This document shows, in pieces, positions 33,024-38,911 of a DNA stretch of 64,000 nt. Numbering within the stretch: the first letter of the stretch is position 1; each line of letters begins with the position of its first letter. A model generated the notes under the pieces. The model ran no database searches, was not told the DNA's origin, and saw only the letters and a list, made by a program, of their open reading frames with translations. The stretch is from Variovorax sp. ZS18.2.2. Lineage in GTDB: Bacteria; Pseudomonadota; Gammaproteobacteria; Burkholderiales; Burkholderiaceae_C. Made by a program: the position numbers and the translations under genes. Where the stretch lies: positions 2,170,001-2,234,000 of the forward strand of contig NZ_JANLNM010000001.1 of NCBI RefSeq assembly GCF_024701975.1, written 5' to 3'.

Positions 33024-34937
33024 TCAGGACAAAGAAAGCAGCTGTTTGATCTGCTGCAGCGTGGCGGGGTCGTCGATGGTGGTCAGGTCGCCCGGGTCGC
33101 GCTGCTCGCAGACGGCCTGGATGGCGCGGCGCAGCAATTTTCCGCTGCGGGTCTTGGGCAGCCCCGAGACGAAGCGCACGCGGGCGGGTCTTGCAAGGGC
33201 ACCGAGCTGATCGGCCACCACTTCCATGATCTCGCCTTCGAGCTTCAGCGCCGCATCGGCGTCGGTCACGGCGCGGCCGTCCTTCGGGACGACGAAGGCC
33301 ATCGCCACCTGTCCCTTGAGCGCATCGGCCACGCCGACCACCGCGACCTCGGCCACGTTGGCATGGCCCGAGATGCTCTCCTCGATCTCGCGCGTGCCGA
33401 GCCGGTGCCCCGCGACGTTGATCACGTCGTCGGTGCGGCCGAGGATGTAGAAGTAGCCGTCCGCATCGCGGATGCCCCAGTCAAAGGTCGAATAGACCAT
33501 CTTGCCGGGCACGCTCTTCCAGTAGGTGTTAATGAAGCGCGCGTCGTCCTTCCACACGGTCTGCATGAAGCCAGGCGGGGTCGGGCCGTCTACCACGACC
33601 ACGCCCTTCTCATTCGGCGCCGTGAGTTCCTCACCGGTCGATTCATGCAGGATCTTGATGCGGTAGCCATACATCGGAATCCCCGGGCTGCCGAACTTGC
33701 TCGGCTTGGCCTCGACGCCGTTGGCGATGGTGATCATCGGCCAGCCCGATTCGGTCTGCCAATAGTTGTCGATGATCGGCACGCCCAGGCCCTCGCTGAT
33801 CCAGCGCGCGGTCGGCTCGTCGAGCGGCTCGCCTGCGAGGAACAGCGCACGCAGGGTCGAGAGGTCGTACTTCTTCAGCAGCGCGGGGTCCTGCTTCTTG
33901 AGCACGCGCACCGCGGTGGGCGCGCTGAACATCACCGTCACCTTGTACTTCTCGACCAGGCGCCACCAGATGCCGCCGTCGGGCTGCTGGTCGATGCCCT
34001 GGGTCGGCAGGCCCTCGTACATGATGGTCGCCATGCCGGCAATCAGCGGGCCGTAGACGATGTAGCTGTGGCCCACGACCCAGCCGATGTCGCTGGTCGA
34101 GAAATACGTTTCGCCGGGCCGGCCGTCGAAGATGTGCTTCATGCTCGCGGCCAGCGCCACGGCATAGCCGCCCACGTCGCGCTGCACACCCTTGGGCTTG
34201 CCGGTGGTGCCGCTCGTGTAGATGGTGTAGCTGATGTCGGTCGAGGCGAGCCACGTGCAGAGCACTTGCGCATCGATGTGCTTCTGCCGCAGTTCGCTGG
34301 CCAGGTGGTCGCGGCCGGCGGTCAGGTCCATGGGTGCGAGGCCGCGGTCGGTCAGGAGCACGGCGGCCGGCTTGTACTTCGACAGGCGGATCGCCTCGTC
34401 CAGCAGCGGCTTGTACGCGATGACCTTGCCGCCGCGCGAGCCGGCATCGGCGCTCACGACGACCTTGGGCTCGGCGTCCTCGATGCGCGTGGCGAGCGAA
34501 CCGCTCGCGAAGCCGCCGAACACCACGCAATGGATCGCGCCGATGCGCGCGCAGGCCAGCATCGCGAAGGCGGCCTCGGGAATCATCGGCATATAGATCA
34601 GTACGCGATCGCCCTTCCCCACGCCGAGCTCGATCAGGCTGGCGGCGGTGCGCTGCACCTCGGCGTGCAGCTCCTTGAAGCTGTAGCTCTTCTCGACGCC
34701 GGTCTCGGTGGAAACGAAGATCAGTGCCGGCTGGTCGCCGCGCGCAGCCAGATGCCGGTCGACCGCGTTGTGGCACAGGTTGGTGGTGCCACCGACGAAC
34801 CAGCGCGCGAACGGCGGCTGGCTGGCGTCGAGGATCTGCTCTGCGGGGGTCTGCCAGTCGATCAGCTTCGCCTGCTCGGCCCAGAAGGCCTCGGGCGCGT
34901 CGATGGACTGGCGATAAAACTCTTCGTAGCGGCTCAT
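33024..34937 (-). CDS. prpE: Propionate--CoA ligase (acetyl-CoA synthetase family)
   Basis: A 637-residue AMP-forming acyl-CoA synthetase. The adenylation motif is YTSGTTGKPKGV, followed by the WVVGHSYIVYGPL and NYWQTESGWPMI segments and the hinge-region FYILGRTDDVINVAGHR. The C-terminal KTRSGKLLRR holds the lysine that is acetylated by Pat in this family. Starting MSRYEEFYRQSIDAPEAFWAEQ and lacking the longer N-terminus of Acs, it fits PrpE, which activates propionate in the 2-methylcitrate route; acetate may be used too. No prpBCD genes are nearby. A good AGGAGAC site precedes ATG 34937. Confidence 0.92.
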   Translation of the reverse strand: MSRYEEFYRQSIDAPEAFWAEQAKLIDWQTPAEQILDASQPPFARWFVGGTTNLCHNAVDRHLAARGDQPALIFVSTETGVEKSYSFKELHAEVQRTAASLIELGVGKGDRVLIYMPMIPEAAFAMLACARIGAIHCVVFGGFASGSLATRIEDAEPKVVVSADAGSRGGKVIAYKPLLDEAIRLSKYKPAAVLLTDRGLAPMDLTAGRDHLASELRQKHIDAQVLCTWLASTDISYTIYTSGTTGKPKGVQRDVGGYAVALAASMKHIFDGRPGETYFSTSDIGWVVGHSYIVYGPLIAGMATIMYEGLPTQGIDQQPDGGIWWRLVEKYKVTVMFSAPTAVRVLKKQDPALLKKYDLSTLRALFLAGEPLDEPTARWISEGLGVPIIDNYWQTESGWPMITIANGVEAKPSKFGSPGIPMYGYRIKILHESTGEELTAPNEKGVVVVDGPTPPGFMQTVWKDDARFINTYWKSVPGKMVYSTFDWGIRDADGYFYILGRTDDVINVAGHRLGTREIEESISGHANVAEVAVVGVADALKGQVAMAFVVPKDGRAVTDADAALKLEGEIMEVVADQLGALARPARVRFVSGLPKTRSGKLLRRAIQAVCEQRDPGDLTTIDDPATLQQIKQLLSLS

Positions 34938-35072: not shown

Positions 35073-35675
35073 CTATCGAACCAGCGCGAGAACCTCAGGA
35101 AACGCGGGGTGTTCCGCGGTGCGCAGCCACTCGAAGGCGACCATCTCGGTCGTCACGAGTTCGGCACCGGCGCCAGCCAGCCGGTCGAAGGCGGCGTCCC
35201 GATTGCGCTCGGTGCGCGAGCCGCAGGCGTCGGTGACGACCCAGACTTCGAATTCTTCTTCGAGCAGGTCGAGCGCGGTCTGCAGCAAGCAGACGTGGGC
35301 TTCGCAGCCGGCGATCACGATGGTGTTGCGTTCTTCGGCCGCGGCGGCCGGCTTCTGCAGATGCTTGGGCAGGCTGCGGGCGTTGCCCTGCGGCGCCTTG
35401 GCCGGCACGCGCAGCCATTCGCCCAGGCCCTCTTCCACGCCGCTGAAATGCATCTTCGGCAAGGTGCGCTGGCACAGCGCGCGGATGTCGGGCACGTTCT
35501 CGCCCAGCTTGGATGGGTTGTGCTCGGTGCCGAACACCGGCACCTCGAACAGCCGCGCCAGCTTGCCCAGCCGCACCGCGTTCTGCGCGACCGCTTCGCT
35601 CTCGAAGATCGCCGGCATCAGCCGCGCCTGGTAGTCGACCAGAACGAGTTGGGAGAGCGAGGCGTCGAGCAGCAT
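35073..35675 (-). CDS. Isochorismatase-like cysteine hydrolase
   Basis: A 200-residue YcaC/nicotinamidase-fold hydrolase. The Asp-Lys-Cys triad is visible: Asp14 in LVDYQARLM, Lys74 in TLPKMHFSG, and Cys129 in IAGCEAHVCLLQTA. Members hydrolyse isochorismate, nicotinamide or other small amides; the substrate here is not evident. It lies 12 bases behind the tetR gene and may share its transcript. Confidence 0.88.
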   Translation of the reverse strand: MLLDASLSQLVLVDYQARLMPAIFESEAVAQNAVRLGKLARLFEVPVFGTEHNPSKLGENVPDIRALCQRTLPKMHFSGVEEGLGEWLRVPAKAPQGNARSLPKHLQKPAAAAEERNTIVIAGCEAHVCLLQTALDLLEEEFEVWVVTDACGSRTERNRDAAFDRLAGAGAELVTTEMVAFEWLRTAEHPAFPEVLALVR

Positions 35676-35687
35676 GAACGGTATCTT

Positions 35688-36392
35688 TCAGGTATCGGTT
35701 GAATTGGGCTGAACCGTACCACCGAAAAGATCGGGTTGGCCTGCCTCGACCGGCTCGCCGGCATCTTCATTCATCGCCGGGGCGGCGGAACGCTGCGTCA
35801 GTTGCGCCAGATAGGTCTTGAACAAGGCATCGGCCGACTGCCGAAACATCCGGATGCGGCCGGTGTGCTGCATCAGCAGCAGGCCGACGCCGTGCGCGAA
35901 GAGCGCCGTGTTTTCCTGCAGCGCGAGGGCGTCGCCCAGGCCCATGGCCAGCAGTGCGCCTTCGCAGGGGCGCAGCGCGTCGTAGAGGCGGTCGTTCAGT
36001 TCGTGGTCCAGCTCGCTGGTCAGCCCACGGGGGCGCATGCCGTGCACCAGATAGAAACCGAGGTCGAGGTCGCGCGGGTTCGCCGCATAGAAGTCGAACC
36101 AGGCCTGCGCCTTGGAGGCCAGGGTCTTGTCCGGCCGGGACTTGGACACCTTCGCCTCGGCCACGGCGGCCTGCAGGCGCATCAGCGATTCGTCGAGCAG
36201 CGCGGCATAGATCGCTTCCTTGCTCTCGAAGTACGAATAGATGGCGCCCGGCGTGTAGCCGGCCTTCTTCGCGATCTCCCGGATGCTCGCGTCCTCGATC
36301 CCCGCATCCGAAAACACCGTGCGGGCAGCGTCGAGCACCAGGGCACGGCGGGCGTCGATGAGGGCCTGGCGGCGTTGGAGCTTGGCGTGCAT
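35688..36392 (-). CDS. TetR family transcriptional regulator
   Basis: A 234-residue TetR repressor with the N-terminal helix-turn-helix (LVLDAARTVFSDAGIEDASI, then REIAKKAGYTPGAIYSYFES). The ligand domain is helical and ends with an acidic tail. Start ATG 36392 is preferred; a GTG at 36399-36401 would add three residues and neither has a strong ribosome site. It diverges from the dehydratase-like gene, and the 115-base gap holds inverted repeats that suit autoregulation and control of that neighbour. Confidence 0.9.
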   Translation of the reverse strand: MHAKLQRRQALIDARRALVLDAARTVFSDAGIEDASIREIAKKAGYTPGAIYSYFESKEAIYAALLDESLMRLQAAVAEAKVSKSRPDKTLASKAQAWFDFYAANPRDLDLGFYLVHGMRPRGLTSELDHELNDRLYDALRPCEGALLAMGLGDALALQENTALFAHGVGLLLMQHTGRIRMFRQSADALFKTYLAQLTQRSAAPAMNEDAGEPVEAGQPDLFGGTVQPNSTDT

Positions 36393-36424
36393 GGGCGGCA
36401 CTATAAGTCTCGGATTACGTTCTA

Positions 36425-36467
36425 GTTCATATTTTTTAACATTGATATAAAAAATGAACAGTGTTCA
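36425..36467. promoter_or_regulatory. TetR-type operator/promoter region
   Basis: In an AT-rich gap between divergent genes, TGAAC AGT GTTCA (36455-36467) has perfect 5-base arms. In addition GTTCAT at 36425-36430 and ATGAAC at 36454-36459 form a wider pair flanking two A/T-rich stretches. TATAAA at 36446-36451 could be the plus-strand -10. This is the expected layout for a TetR repressor binding between its own gene and its target. Confidence 0.6.
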
Positions 36468-36507: not shown

Positions 36508-38127
36508 ATGAACGCCCCGCTCCCCGCCGCCCTCATGTCCGGCGCCGACTACCGCGAATCGCTGCGCCGCTACAGCCCCAACGTGTTCGTCGATGGCCGC
36601 CGCGTCGACAGCGTGGCCGACGAAGCCGCGTTCCAGCCCGGCATCAATGCCATCGCCCTCACCTACGACTACGCCTTGAAGGCCGAGTACGAGCCCCTGA
36701 TGACCGCCGTGCAGCACACCAGCGGCAAGCGGGTGAACCGGCTCTCGCACATCGACACCAGCTCGGGCGACCTGCTCAACAAGCTGGAGGCCGTGCGGCT
36801 GGTCTGCCAGGAAACCGGCTGCGCCCAGCGCTACCTGACGCACGACGCGCTCAATGCCATCGCTCAGGTGTCGGCGCGCATCGACGACGCGCGCGGCAGC
36901 ACCGAGCACACCGCGCGCTTCCACGAGTACCTGCACCGCGTGCAAGACCAGGACCTGACCCTGGGCGTCGCCATGACCGACGCCAAGGGCGACCGCAGCC
37001 GCCGGCCGCACGAGCAGGCGAACGTCGACAGCTACCTGCACGTGGTCGAGCGCAATGCGCGCGGCATCGTCATCTCGGGCACGAAGGCCATCGTGACCGG
37101 CGCGCCTTATGTGCACGAACTGCTCGTCATGCCCTGCCGCAACATGGGCCGCGAAGACGCCGACTTCGCCGTCTGCTGCGCCGTGCCGCTCGATGCGCCC
37201 GGCCTCACCATCGTCGCCCGACCGGCCGGCCGCCCCGGCGAAAAGCTCGAACACGGCGACGCCCTCTTCAGCCGCAAGTACGGCCAGAGCACCGGCGTGT
37301 GCATGTTCGACCGCGTCTTCGTGCCGTGGGAGCGCGTGTTCTACGCCGGCGAATGGGAGCACTCCGGCCACCTCACCTACAGCTACGCCACGCACCATCG
37401 CCACAGCTGCATCGGCGCGCGCGCCGGTTTCGGCGACCTCCTGATCGGTGCCGGCGCGCTGATGTGCGAGGCCAACGGCTTCGACCCCGGCAAGGAAAGC
37501 CACCTGCGCGAGCAGATGGTCGAACTCATCACCATCACCGAGAGCTTCTTCGCCTGCGGCGTGGCCGCCAGCGTCTACGGCAAGGCCGACGCGCACTGCG
37601 AAGTCTTCATGCCCGACCCGGTGTTCAGCAACATCGGCAAGCTGCTGCTGGCCACGAAGATCTACGACATGCACCGCATCGCGCACTACGTGAGCGGCGG
37701 GCTCATCGTCACCCTGCCCGGCCCCGACGAAGACCACAACCCCGAGACCGCAGCACGCCTCTCGGACGTGCTGCGCGCCAACCCGGCGATTCCCTACGAG
37801 CAGCGCATCGAGACGGCCCGCTTCATCGAAGACCTCACGGCCGGCTACCAGGGCGGCTGGTACAGCGTGATCAGCCTGCATGGCGGCGGCTCGCCGGCGG
37901 CGATGAAGCAGGAGATCTGGCGCAACTACCCGGTGGGCTCCAAGGTCGAGCTGGTCGAGCGCATCCTGGAACGCGGCATTGCGGCGGACGGATCGCCCGC
38001 CGCGGCGCCGCACGATCCGGCACGCGCCATCACGAAGAACCGCCAGCCCGGCAAATGCTGCGACACCGGCTGCACCACGCCCGGCCAGCCGGTGATGGTC
38101 GACCTGCCGGCCTCGCGGCGCGCCTAG
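36508..38127 (+). CDS. 4-hydroxybutyryl-CoA dehydratase/HpaB-family protein
   Basis: A 539-residue acyl-CoA-dehydrogenase-fold flavoprotein of the 4-hydroxyphenylacetate 3-hydroxylase/4-hydroxybutyryl-CoA dehydratase family. It parallels the clostridial dehydratase (AbfD) along its length, for example in TDAKGDRSRRP, the ITESFFACGVAAS region and SLHGGGSPAAMK. AbfD binds [4Fe-4S] through three Cys and one His. By my remembered alignment Cys105 and His297 are kept, but Tyr109 and Ala304 stand where two Cys should be. A C-terminal tail holds KCCDTGC at 516-522. Start ATG 36508 has GGAG seven bases upstream. True reaction, dehydration or flavin-dependent hydroxylation, is open. It is likely controlled by the divergent TetR. 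Confidence 0.82.
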   Translation: MNAPLPAALMSGADYRESLRRYSPNVFVDGRRVDSVADEAAFQPGINAIALTYDYALKAEYEPLMTAVQHTSGKRVNRLSHIDTSSGDLLNKLEAVRLVCQETGCAQRYLTHDALNAIAQVSARIDDARGSTEHTARFHEYLHRVQDQDLTLGVAMTDAKGDRSRRPHEQANVDSYLHVVERNARGIVISGTKAIVTGAPYVHELLVMPCRNMGREDADFAVCCAVPLDAPGLTIVARPAGRPGEKLEHGDALFSRKYGQSTGVCMFDRVFVPWERVFYAGEWEHSGHLTYSYATHHRHSCIGARAGFGDLLIGAGALMCEANGFDPGKESHLREQMVELITITESFFACGVAASVYGKADAHCEVFMPDPVFSNIGKLLLATKIYDMHRIAHYVSGGLIVTLPGPDEDHNPETAARLSDVLRANPAIPYEQRIETARFIEDLTAGYQGGWYSVISLHGGGSPAAMKQEIWRNYPVGSKVELVERILERGIAADGSPAAAPHDPARAITKNRQPGKCCDTGCTTPGQPVMVDLPASRRA

Positions 38128-38137
38128 ACTCCGGCGG

Positions 38138-38911
38138 ATGCAGATTCTTCTGGCTGCTCTTTGCGCTGCGCTGCTAGCCACCGGGTGCGGCGGCCTGCGC
38201 ACGGCCAAGGCGCCGCTGGAGACCACACTCGAAAAAAGCACCTGCACACCGAACGCCGACACGCTCGTCGTGATGCTGCCCGGCGCCTACTCGCACCCCG
38301 ACGAGTTCGTGCGCGAAGGCTTCGTCAGCGCCCTGAACGACAACAGGCTCGCGGTGGACGTGATGCGGGTCGACGCCCATCTCGGCTACTACAACAGCAA
38401 GACCATCCTCGAGCGCTTGAGCCAGGACGTGATGGCACCGGCGCGCAGCCAAGGCTACAAGTCGATCTGGATCGTCGGCATCTCGGTCGGCGGCTTCGGC
38501 GGGCTGCTCTACGCGCAGACCCACCCCGGCGAACTCGCGGGCCTCGTCACCCTTGCGCCCTATCTCGGAGAACGCGGACTCAGCACCGACATCGCCAATG
38601 CCGGCGGGATCGCCCGCTGGACCGGGCCGGTGAGCGATCCGCCCGGCAACGACCCACGCACGCCGAACGAAACACAGCTCTGGCAATGGCTGCGCGGCTA
38701 CGTCGGCACCACCGCCACCTTCGGCGCACGGCCACCGCTCTATCTCGGGTACGCGATCGACGACCGCTTTGCCTTCAGCCACCGGCTGCTGGCGGCGGCG
38801 CTGCCAGCGGATCGCGTCTTCACGACGGAAGGCGGCCACGACTGGCCCGAGTGGACGCGGCTCTGGCGCCGCATGCTGCCGACCCTGCCGCTGCCGGGCT
38901 GCCCCGGCTGA
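38138..38911 (+). CDS. Alpha/beta hydrolase lipoprotein
   Basis: A 257-residue predicted lipoprotein (signal ending LLATGCGG, Cys at residue 17) with an alpha/beta-hydrolase core. The opening strand is TLVVMLPGAYSHPDEFV, the nucleophile elbow is IVGISVGGFGG with the serine in G-x-S-x-G, and the late EGGHDWPEWTRLW supplies the catalytic His. The acid residue probably lies in GYAIDDRFA. Substrate unknown. It follows the dehydratase-like gene by 10 bases on the same strand, so the two are probably co-transcribed. Confidence 0.82.
   Translation: MQILLAALCAALLATGCGGLRTAKAPLETTLEKSTCTPNADTLVVMLPGAYSHPDEFVREGFVSALNDNRLAVDVMRVDAHLGYYNSKTILERLSQDVMAPARSQGYKSIWIVGISVGGFGGLLYAQTHPGELAGLVTLAPYLGERGLSTDIANAGGIARWTGPVSDPPGNDPRTPNETQLWQWLRGYVGTTATFGARPPLYLGYAIDDRFAFSHRLLAAALPADRVFTTEGGHDWPEWTRLWRRMLPTLPLPGCPG

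Follow-up and report, generated by a model that had tools for sequence, protein, structure and literature searches.

An apparent subfamily allied to 4-hydroxybutyryl-CoA dehydratase that lacks two cluster ligands and carries new invariant cysteines

In the rare enzyme 4-hydroxybutyryl-CoA dehydratase (4HBD), a flavin works together with a [4Fe-4S] cluster to generate a radical of the substrate. A gene of Variovorax sp. ZS18.2.2 encodes a relative of this enzyme in which two of the four cluster ligands are replaced, which raises the question of what such a protein might do with the scaffold. The gene lies in the window analysed here, a 64,000-nucleotide stretch of contig NZ_JANLNM010000001.1, and its product belongs to a group of closely similar proteins that we call the clade. 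A clade that adjoins 4HBD, lacks the canonical cluster site and has new fixed cysteines constitutes a natural experiment on the other uses of this scaffold. We recognized no paper describing the clade in open-licence PubMed Central.

The gene and its relatives

The open reading frame could begin at an upstream ATG (position 36454), but the start at 36508 is preferred because the upstream ATG falls inside a conserved palindrome (Table 1) and because GGAG precedes 36508. Both Pfam domains of the product score above their cut-offs (HpaB_N, 296 bits against 35; HpaB, 178 bits against 25), and a profile search finds one HpaB-domain gene in the 7.2 Mb host genome. The closest matches in a relatives search come from Variovorax. 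Many more distant relatives bear the name 4-hydroxyphenylacetate 3-hydroxylase, and this Pfam-derived name would mislead for the clade protein. Among proteins of the PDB, the 4HBDs of Nitrosopumilus maritimus (6vjr, 296 bits) and Clostridium aminobutyricum (1u8v, called AbfD, 281 bits) match along the length of the protein, whereas the best HpaB, from Thermus thermophilus, reaches only 122 bits. The full-length alignment with AbfD that had been proposed from the sequence alone is thus borne out.

Table 1 Features of the window that bear on the clade gene
Feature	Position	Strand	Basis or conservation
Propionate--CoA ligase PrpE	33024..34937	-	Neighbour in Comamonadaceae-type loci only
Isochorismatase-like hydrolase	35073..35675	-	Within 4 kb in 76/97 loci
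Divergent TetR-family regulator	35688..36401	-	Within 4 kb in 58/97 loci
Candidate TetR operator ATGAACAGTGTTCAA, consensus TTGAACNNTGTTCAA	36454..36468	.	Motif match in upstream sequences
4HBD/HpaB-superfamily protein, probable flavoenzyme, 539 aa, Pfam HpaB_N + HpaB	36508..38127	+	ORF, Pfam, alignment, tree, model
CQETGCAQRY, codons 100-109: Cys100 (new), Cys105 (AbfD C99), Tyr109 (AbfD C103)	36805..36834	+	Each of the three 99/99
HRHSCIGA, codons 297-304: His297 (AbfD H292), Cys301 (AbfD Y296), Ala304 (AbfD C299)	37396..37419	+	Each of the three 99/99
C-terminal motif QPGKCCDTGCTTP, codons 513-525	38044..38082	+	Cys517, 518 and 522 invariant, after a variable linker

Conservation was assessed on 99 clade sequences (98 of them distinct), which remain from 112 alignment rows after removal of 13 second copies from the same genome place; 10 further repeats had been left out earlier. 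Eighty-four of them, including that of the window, are of Comamonadaceae type; they are close to one another rather than independent, as the 80 loci kept from the relatives search are the best of the 397 related stretches that it found. The other 15 come from another class of the phylum, probably Alphaproteobacteria as judged from kinship within the phylum, and their proteins are 63–69% identical to the window protein. Overall, 174 of the 539 columns are invariant.

Among 398 genomes sampled from across the phylum, 8 hold a clade member (at least 68% identity), the window's genome included, in a survey that scored at most three candidates per genome for most genomes. Members were found in 3/244, 6/61 and 6/199 genomes of three orders (centres included), counts that are not unbiased rates because each order was picked for holding a member. 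The survey of one order also uncovered five genomes with relatives of 35–36% identity, and the three that were put in a tree fall among the 4HBDs. On a contig from a viral collection (L165, 1825-3273) lies a gene for a 4HBD-like protein in which none of the four ligand residues is replaced.

The cluster-ligand site and the C-terminal tail

We take the Cys3His site of AbfD to consist of Cys99, Cys103, His292 and Cys299, and the alignment agrees, with Cys, Cys, His and Cys at these AbfD positions. The clade protein keeps two of the four, Cys99 as Cys105 and His292 as His297, and has Tyr109 in place of Cys103 and Ala304 in place of Cys299; every one of these states is found in all 99 clade sequences. 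The anchoring segments are CFQRC in AbfD against CAQRY in the clade protein, and HRQSYGGC against HRHSCIGA, and MAFFT alignments give the same ligand states as the pairwise alignment with the PDB entry. This is the pattern of retention and substitution that the sequence-only reading had described, and the two cysteines that it had pointed out close by, Cys100 and Cys301, are likewise present in 99 of 99. Because Cys100, Cys105, Tyr109, His297, Cys301 and Ala304 are each identical throughout, a sequencing error, random loss or a decaying gene is an unlikely cause of the altered site.

All four ligands are kept in 8 of the 10 rows that form the 4HBD-like group of our tree (from Fusobacterium, Cetobacterium, Bradyrhizobium, Sphingomonas, three further genomes and one viral-collection contig), and these eight rows have Gly at the column of Cys100, which is therefore new to the clade. 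The other two rows, L116 and L090, likewise lack canonical ligands; the clade is thus not alone in missing the site. The placement of these two is unsure.

The changes extend beyond the ligands. Four further AbfD residues, E455, E257, Y296 and K300, presumably have catalytic roles. The clade has Ile455, Cys301 and Arg305 at the positions of E455, Y296 and K300 (99/99 each), and E257 aligns at Ser261/Thr262 (96/99 each). In contrast, T190 and Q101 of AbfD are kept as Thr197 and Gln107 (99/99 each), and the clade also shares the TDxKGDR motif with the solved 4HBDs. Since both the cluster ligands and the four AbfD residues are changed, we do not file the clade protein as a 4HBD.

Eight of the 13 cysteines of the window protein are invariant (positions 100, 105, 224, 301, 350, 517, 518 and 522), and the last three of these lie in a C-terminal motif that, like Cys100 and Cys301, the clade has in addition to what the 4HBDs carry. 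Specifically, the solved 4HBDs align up to residue 486 only, after which a variable linker (residues 486-512, 1 of 27 columns invariant) leads to the tail QPGxCCxxGCxxP (513-525), where 7 of 13 columns are invariant and Pro514 is present in 98 of 99 sequences. Beyond residue 525 the end is variable again (0/14). The CCxxGC motif was not seen in the aligned 4HBD and HpaB rows. Neither this motif nor the substitutions at AbfD E455, E257, Y296 and K300 had figured in the sequence-only reading. Among 966 ORFs called in 97 neighbourhood loci, 95 carry it within their last 45 residues; QPG precedes it in 94, and a clade member with QAG (L080) has it too. A Pfam search with the last 52 residues returned no family at E values up to 10. 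The tail resembles a motif, CCxSGC, of the Oxidored-like proteins in Pfam.

A plasmid of Mycolicibacterium gilvum, pMSPYR101, carries the C-terminal part only of a clade member (L112, 10001-10663; 58% identity over 205 residues). The same tail is present in this partial copy and is thus not confined to Pseudomonadota. A short gene for an acyl-CoA dehydrogenase (middle domain) lies downstream of the copy, and an IS1380-family transposase gene lies about 1 kb upstream.

These cysteines bear on an alternative that we consider possible but somewhat unlikely, namely that an iron-sulfur cluster or a single metal is still held by a shifted set comprising Cys105, His297, Cys301 and a fourth ligand from Cys100, a tail cysteine or the substrate. 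Consistent with this idea is the fact that Cys100, Cys105, His297, Cys301 and the three tail cysteines are each found in 99 of 99 sequences. Moreover, Cys301, at the position of AbfD Tyr296, lies four residues past His297 on the same predicted helix (283-322), and the His-to-Cys spacing varies even among ligand-keeping 4HBDs (HRQSYGGC versus HRRSYV-C). However, the predicted helix that precedes Cys105 contains Cys100, whose counterpart in the alignment is the Gly of 4HBDs rather than Cys103. The genera named here, which we take to be aerobic, also speak against an iron-sulfur cluster, but this counts little, as 6vjr is titled an oxygen-tolerant 4HBD.

Fold model and trees

An AlphaFold2 model of the protein has a mean pLDDT of 70.7, is weak over most of residues 396-497 and falls below 50 for the tail (507-539). 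Its top Foldseek hits are 1u8v and 6vjr, and VIA-align Z values are 43–44 to these two 4HBDs, 32–36 to HpaB, TftD and HadA, and about 21 to acyl-CoA dehydrogenases. Foldseek, VIA-align and the trees described below agree on a 4HBD fold and on 4HBDs as closest kin; the predicted fold class and the ancestry are common to the clade protein and 4HBD.

Phylogenetic comparison with AbfD and HpaB had been named in the sequence-only reading as a check, and it sets the clade with the 4HBDs. In a 40-row IQ-TREE analysis (rows hand-picked; L111 absent; L118, where the ORF read past a stop, trimmed to 500 residues), the 18 clade rows form one group (100/100) that joins the eight ligand-keeping 4HBDs (100/99), with 12 HpaB/TftD rows on the opposite side (100/99). 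IQ-TREE gave a long-branch warning, and the join between clade and 4HBDs is among the branches concerned; this join stands at 100/100 in a tree from which four long rows (L116, L090, L103 and L099) were removed. When the eight ligand-keeping 4HBDs were removed instead, the clade remained separate from HpaB/TftD (100/99) and joined L116 and L090. The trees are unrooted, and calling the clade sister to the 4HBDs presupposes a root on the HpaB side.

The same reading had also offered an HpaB-type hydroxylase, which our results do not support. We reject membership of the HpaB group on the trees, all three of which place the clade with 4HBDs or outside HpaB/TftD, and on the substrate residues: R100, Y104 and H142 of T. 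thermophilus HpaB align with L110, A114 and V154 of the clade protein. We therefore do not file it as an HpaB hydroxylase. A two-component, FADH2-dependent monooxygenase of HpaB/TftD type acting on a non-phenolic substrate would fit the Pfam HpaB_N and HpaB domains and the many monooxygenases in the superfamily; the overall fold, too, is shared with HpaB, TftD and HadA. We consider it quite improbable, given the separation from HpaB/TftD at 100/99 or 100/100 and the HpaB substrate residues that are not kept. One query for a RutF-type flavin reductase (source L119) matched 17 loci, of which the 16 besides L119 are of HpaB/TftD type; within the loci searched, this single query of the RutF kind matched no clade locus.

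Neighbouring genes, a candidate operator and a proposed function

Neighbours within 4 kb were compared in 97 loci (the best 80 of the 397 relatives and 17 others), with bit-score limits that we set ourselves, and truncated contigs included, which lowers the counts. The TetR gene is always upstream on the opposite strand, and it occurs in 46 of 82 Comamonadaceae-type loci and 12 of 15 loci of the other class. The isochorismatase-like hydrolase gene is upstream on the opposite strand in 75 loci and downstream in one (L041), with 72/82 and 4/15 loci of the two origins. An AidB-type acyl-CoA dehydrogenase is encoded in 11 of the 97 loci (7/82 and 4/15) in four different arrangements; its identity rests on PF18158 (L160), with NCBIfam NF008594 below its cut-off for L121. 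In the window's genome the best AidB match, for which NF008594 is above cut-off, is unlinked and lies elsewhere. The locus L120 encodes a TetR protein 51% identical and a hydrolase 42% identical to those of the window. Because these neighbours recur in the other class, the linkage spans two classes, firmly for TetR and less so for the hydrolase and AidB.

Other neighbours, which were called with a crude purpose-written gene caller, differ between genomes. PrpE genes cluster in 57 loci, with no locus of the other class among them, and a part for PrpE in the system is uncertain. A gene for an ACC deaminase (TIGR01274, over cut-off) lies 7 bases from the clade gene in L151 (6780-7796), and another is present in L153 (5348-6424). 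In L157 (6639-10864), genes for the alpha and beta subunits of nitrile hydratase start 63 bases after the clade gene, from which TetR and hydrolase genes diverge. Liv-type transporter genes adjoin the clade gene in L120, L150 and L160. This variety leaves a small acyl or nitrogenous substrate as only a guess. Downstream in the window (38138-38911), a small alpha/beta-hydrolase-like gene falls in a cluster whose 22 loci include none from the other class, and it is probably outside the system.

The palindrome ATGAACAGTGTTCAA lies between tetR and the clade gene, differs from the consensus TTGAACNNTGTTCAA by one mismatch and overlaps the alternative start at 36454. A match to the consensus (at most 2 mismatches, at most 300 bases upstream) is present in 47 of 57 loci with a TetR gene versus 3 of 40 without, where one locus with a TetR match 2.5 kb away (L155) was entered as TetR-less. 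Shuffled upstream sequences reach such a match in 0.2% of cases. The consensus was picked after viewing the same sequences, so the TetR-less loci are the better control, and these also differ by lineage. We regard the palindrome as a good candidate operator.

We read the clade as a new subfamily within the HpaB superfamily that falls on the side of 4HBD and is apparently distinct from canonical 4HBD. It may be flavin-only, as the sequence-only reading had also suggested, or may bind a cluster or metal through other residues. The idea that the protein works as a 4HBD or vinylacetyl-CoA isomerase whose cluster is altered deserves very little credence: the closest solved relatives are indeed 4HBDs, but two ligands and E455, E257, Y296 and K300 are changed, and none of the 30 neighbours named, which are a subset of all neighbours, is a gene for GABA or 4-hydroxybutyrate use.

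The explanation that we favour overall, at a little short of an even chance, is a 4HBD-lineage FAD enzyme with a rebuilt pocket, a tail that acts as an arm, repression by TetR, and the hydrolase and AidB in the same pathway. The protein is predicted to bind FAD and would perform flavin chemistry (dehydrogenation, isomerization or elimination), with a small compound that is an acyl or contains nitrogen as the putative substrate; it may resemble flavoenzymes of the acyl-CoA dehydrogenase fold in the way it works. Where 4HBD has its cluster pocket, the clade protein would have a pocket of Cys105, His297 and Cys301, which the CC tail may serve as a flexible arm for thiol or metal. The divergent TetR protein would repress the clade gene through the palindrome, and the pathway would also involve the isochorismatase-like hydrolase and, in some genomes, AidB. 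Together, the Cys/His pocket and the tail could accommodate a different metal or thiol cofactor. A fuller version is a good deal more doubtful: the 4HBD scaffold would have been converted to a metal or thiol site at Cys105, His297 and Cys301 with a mobile CCxxGC arm, much like the C-terminal cysteine arms of mercuric and thioredoxin reductases, working with a cysteine hydrolase and AidB in a detoxification or catabolic pathway.

Two described systems invite comparison. BbuA, a gamma-butyrobetainyl-CoA trimethylamine-lyase, is a putative flavoenzyme whose C4 elimination its authors compare with that of 4HBD, at an identity to 4HBD of about 10% or less (PMC8364193). Its likeness to the clade protein is by description, by way of 4HBD.

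In Pseudomonas aeruginosa, a TetR regulator gene (PA3973) adjoins that of an AidB homologue (PA3972) in a cluster with PA3971, and the motif reported for PA3973, SAAGRNMTGAACG, contains TGAAC, as does the half-site of the clade palindrome (PMC9736018). Unlike the clade loci, this cluster has no 4HBD-like gene mentioned in the accessible part of that report, and the TetR likeness is at the family level. A double mutant without the AidB homologue and a thioesterase is described there as growing poorly with hydroxylamine or hydroxyurea (PMC9736018). By analogy with this work and from the AidB link, a first guess is that the clade responds to some reactive compound of nitrogen or carbon. The occurrence of AidB beside clade genes may also help to clarify the role of AidB.
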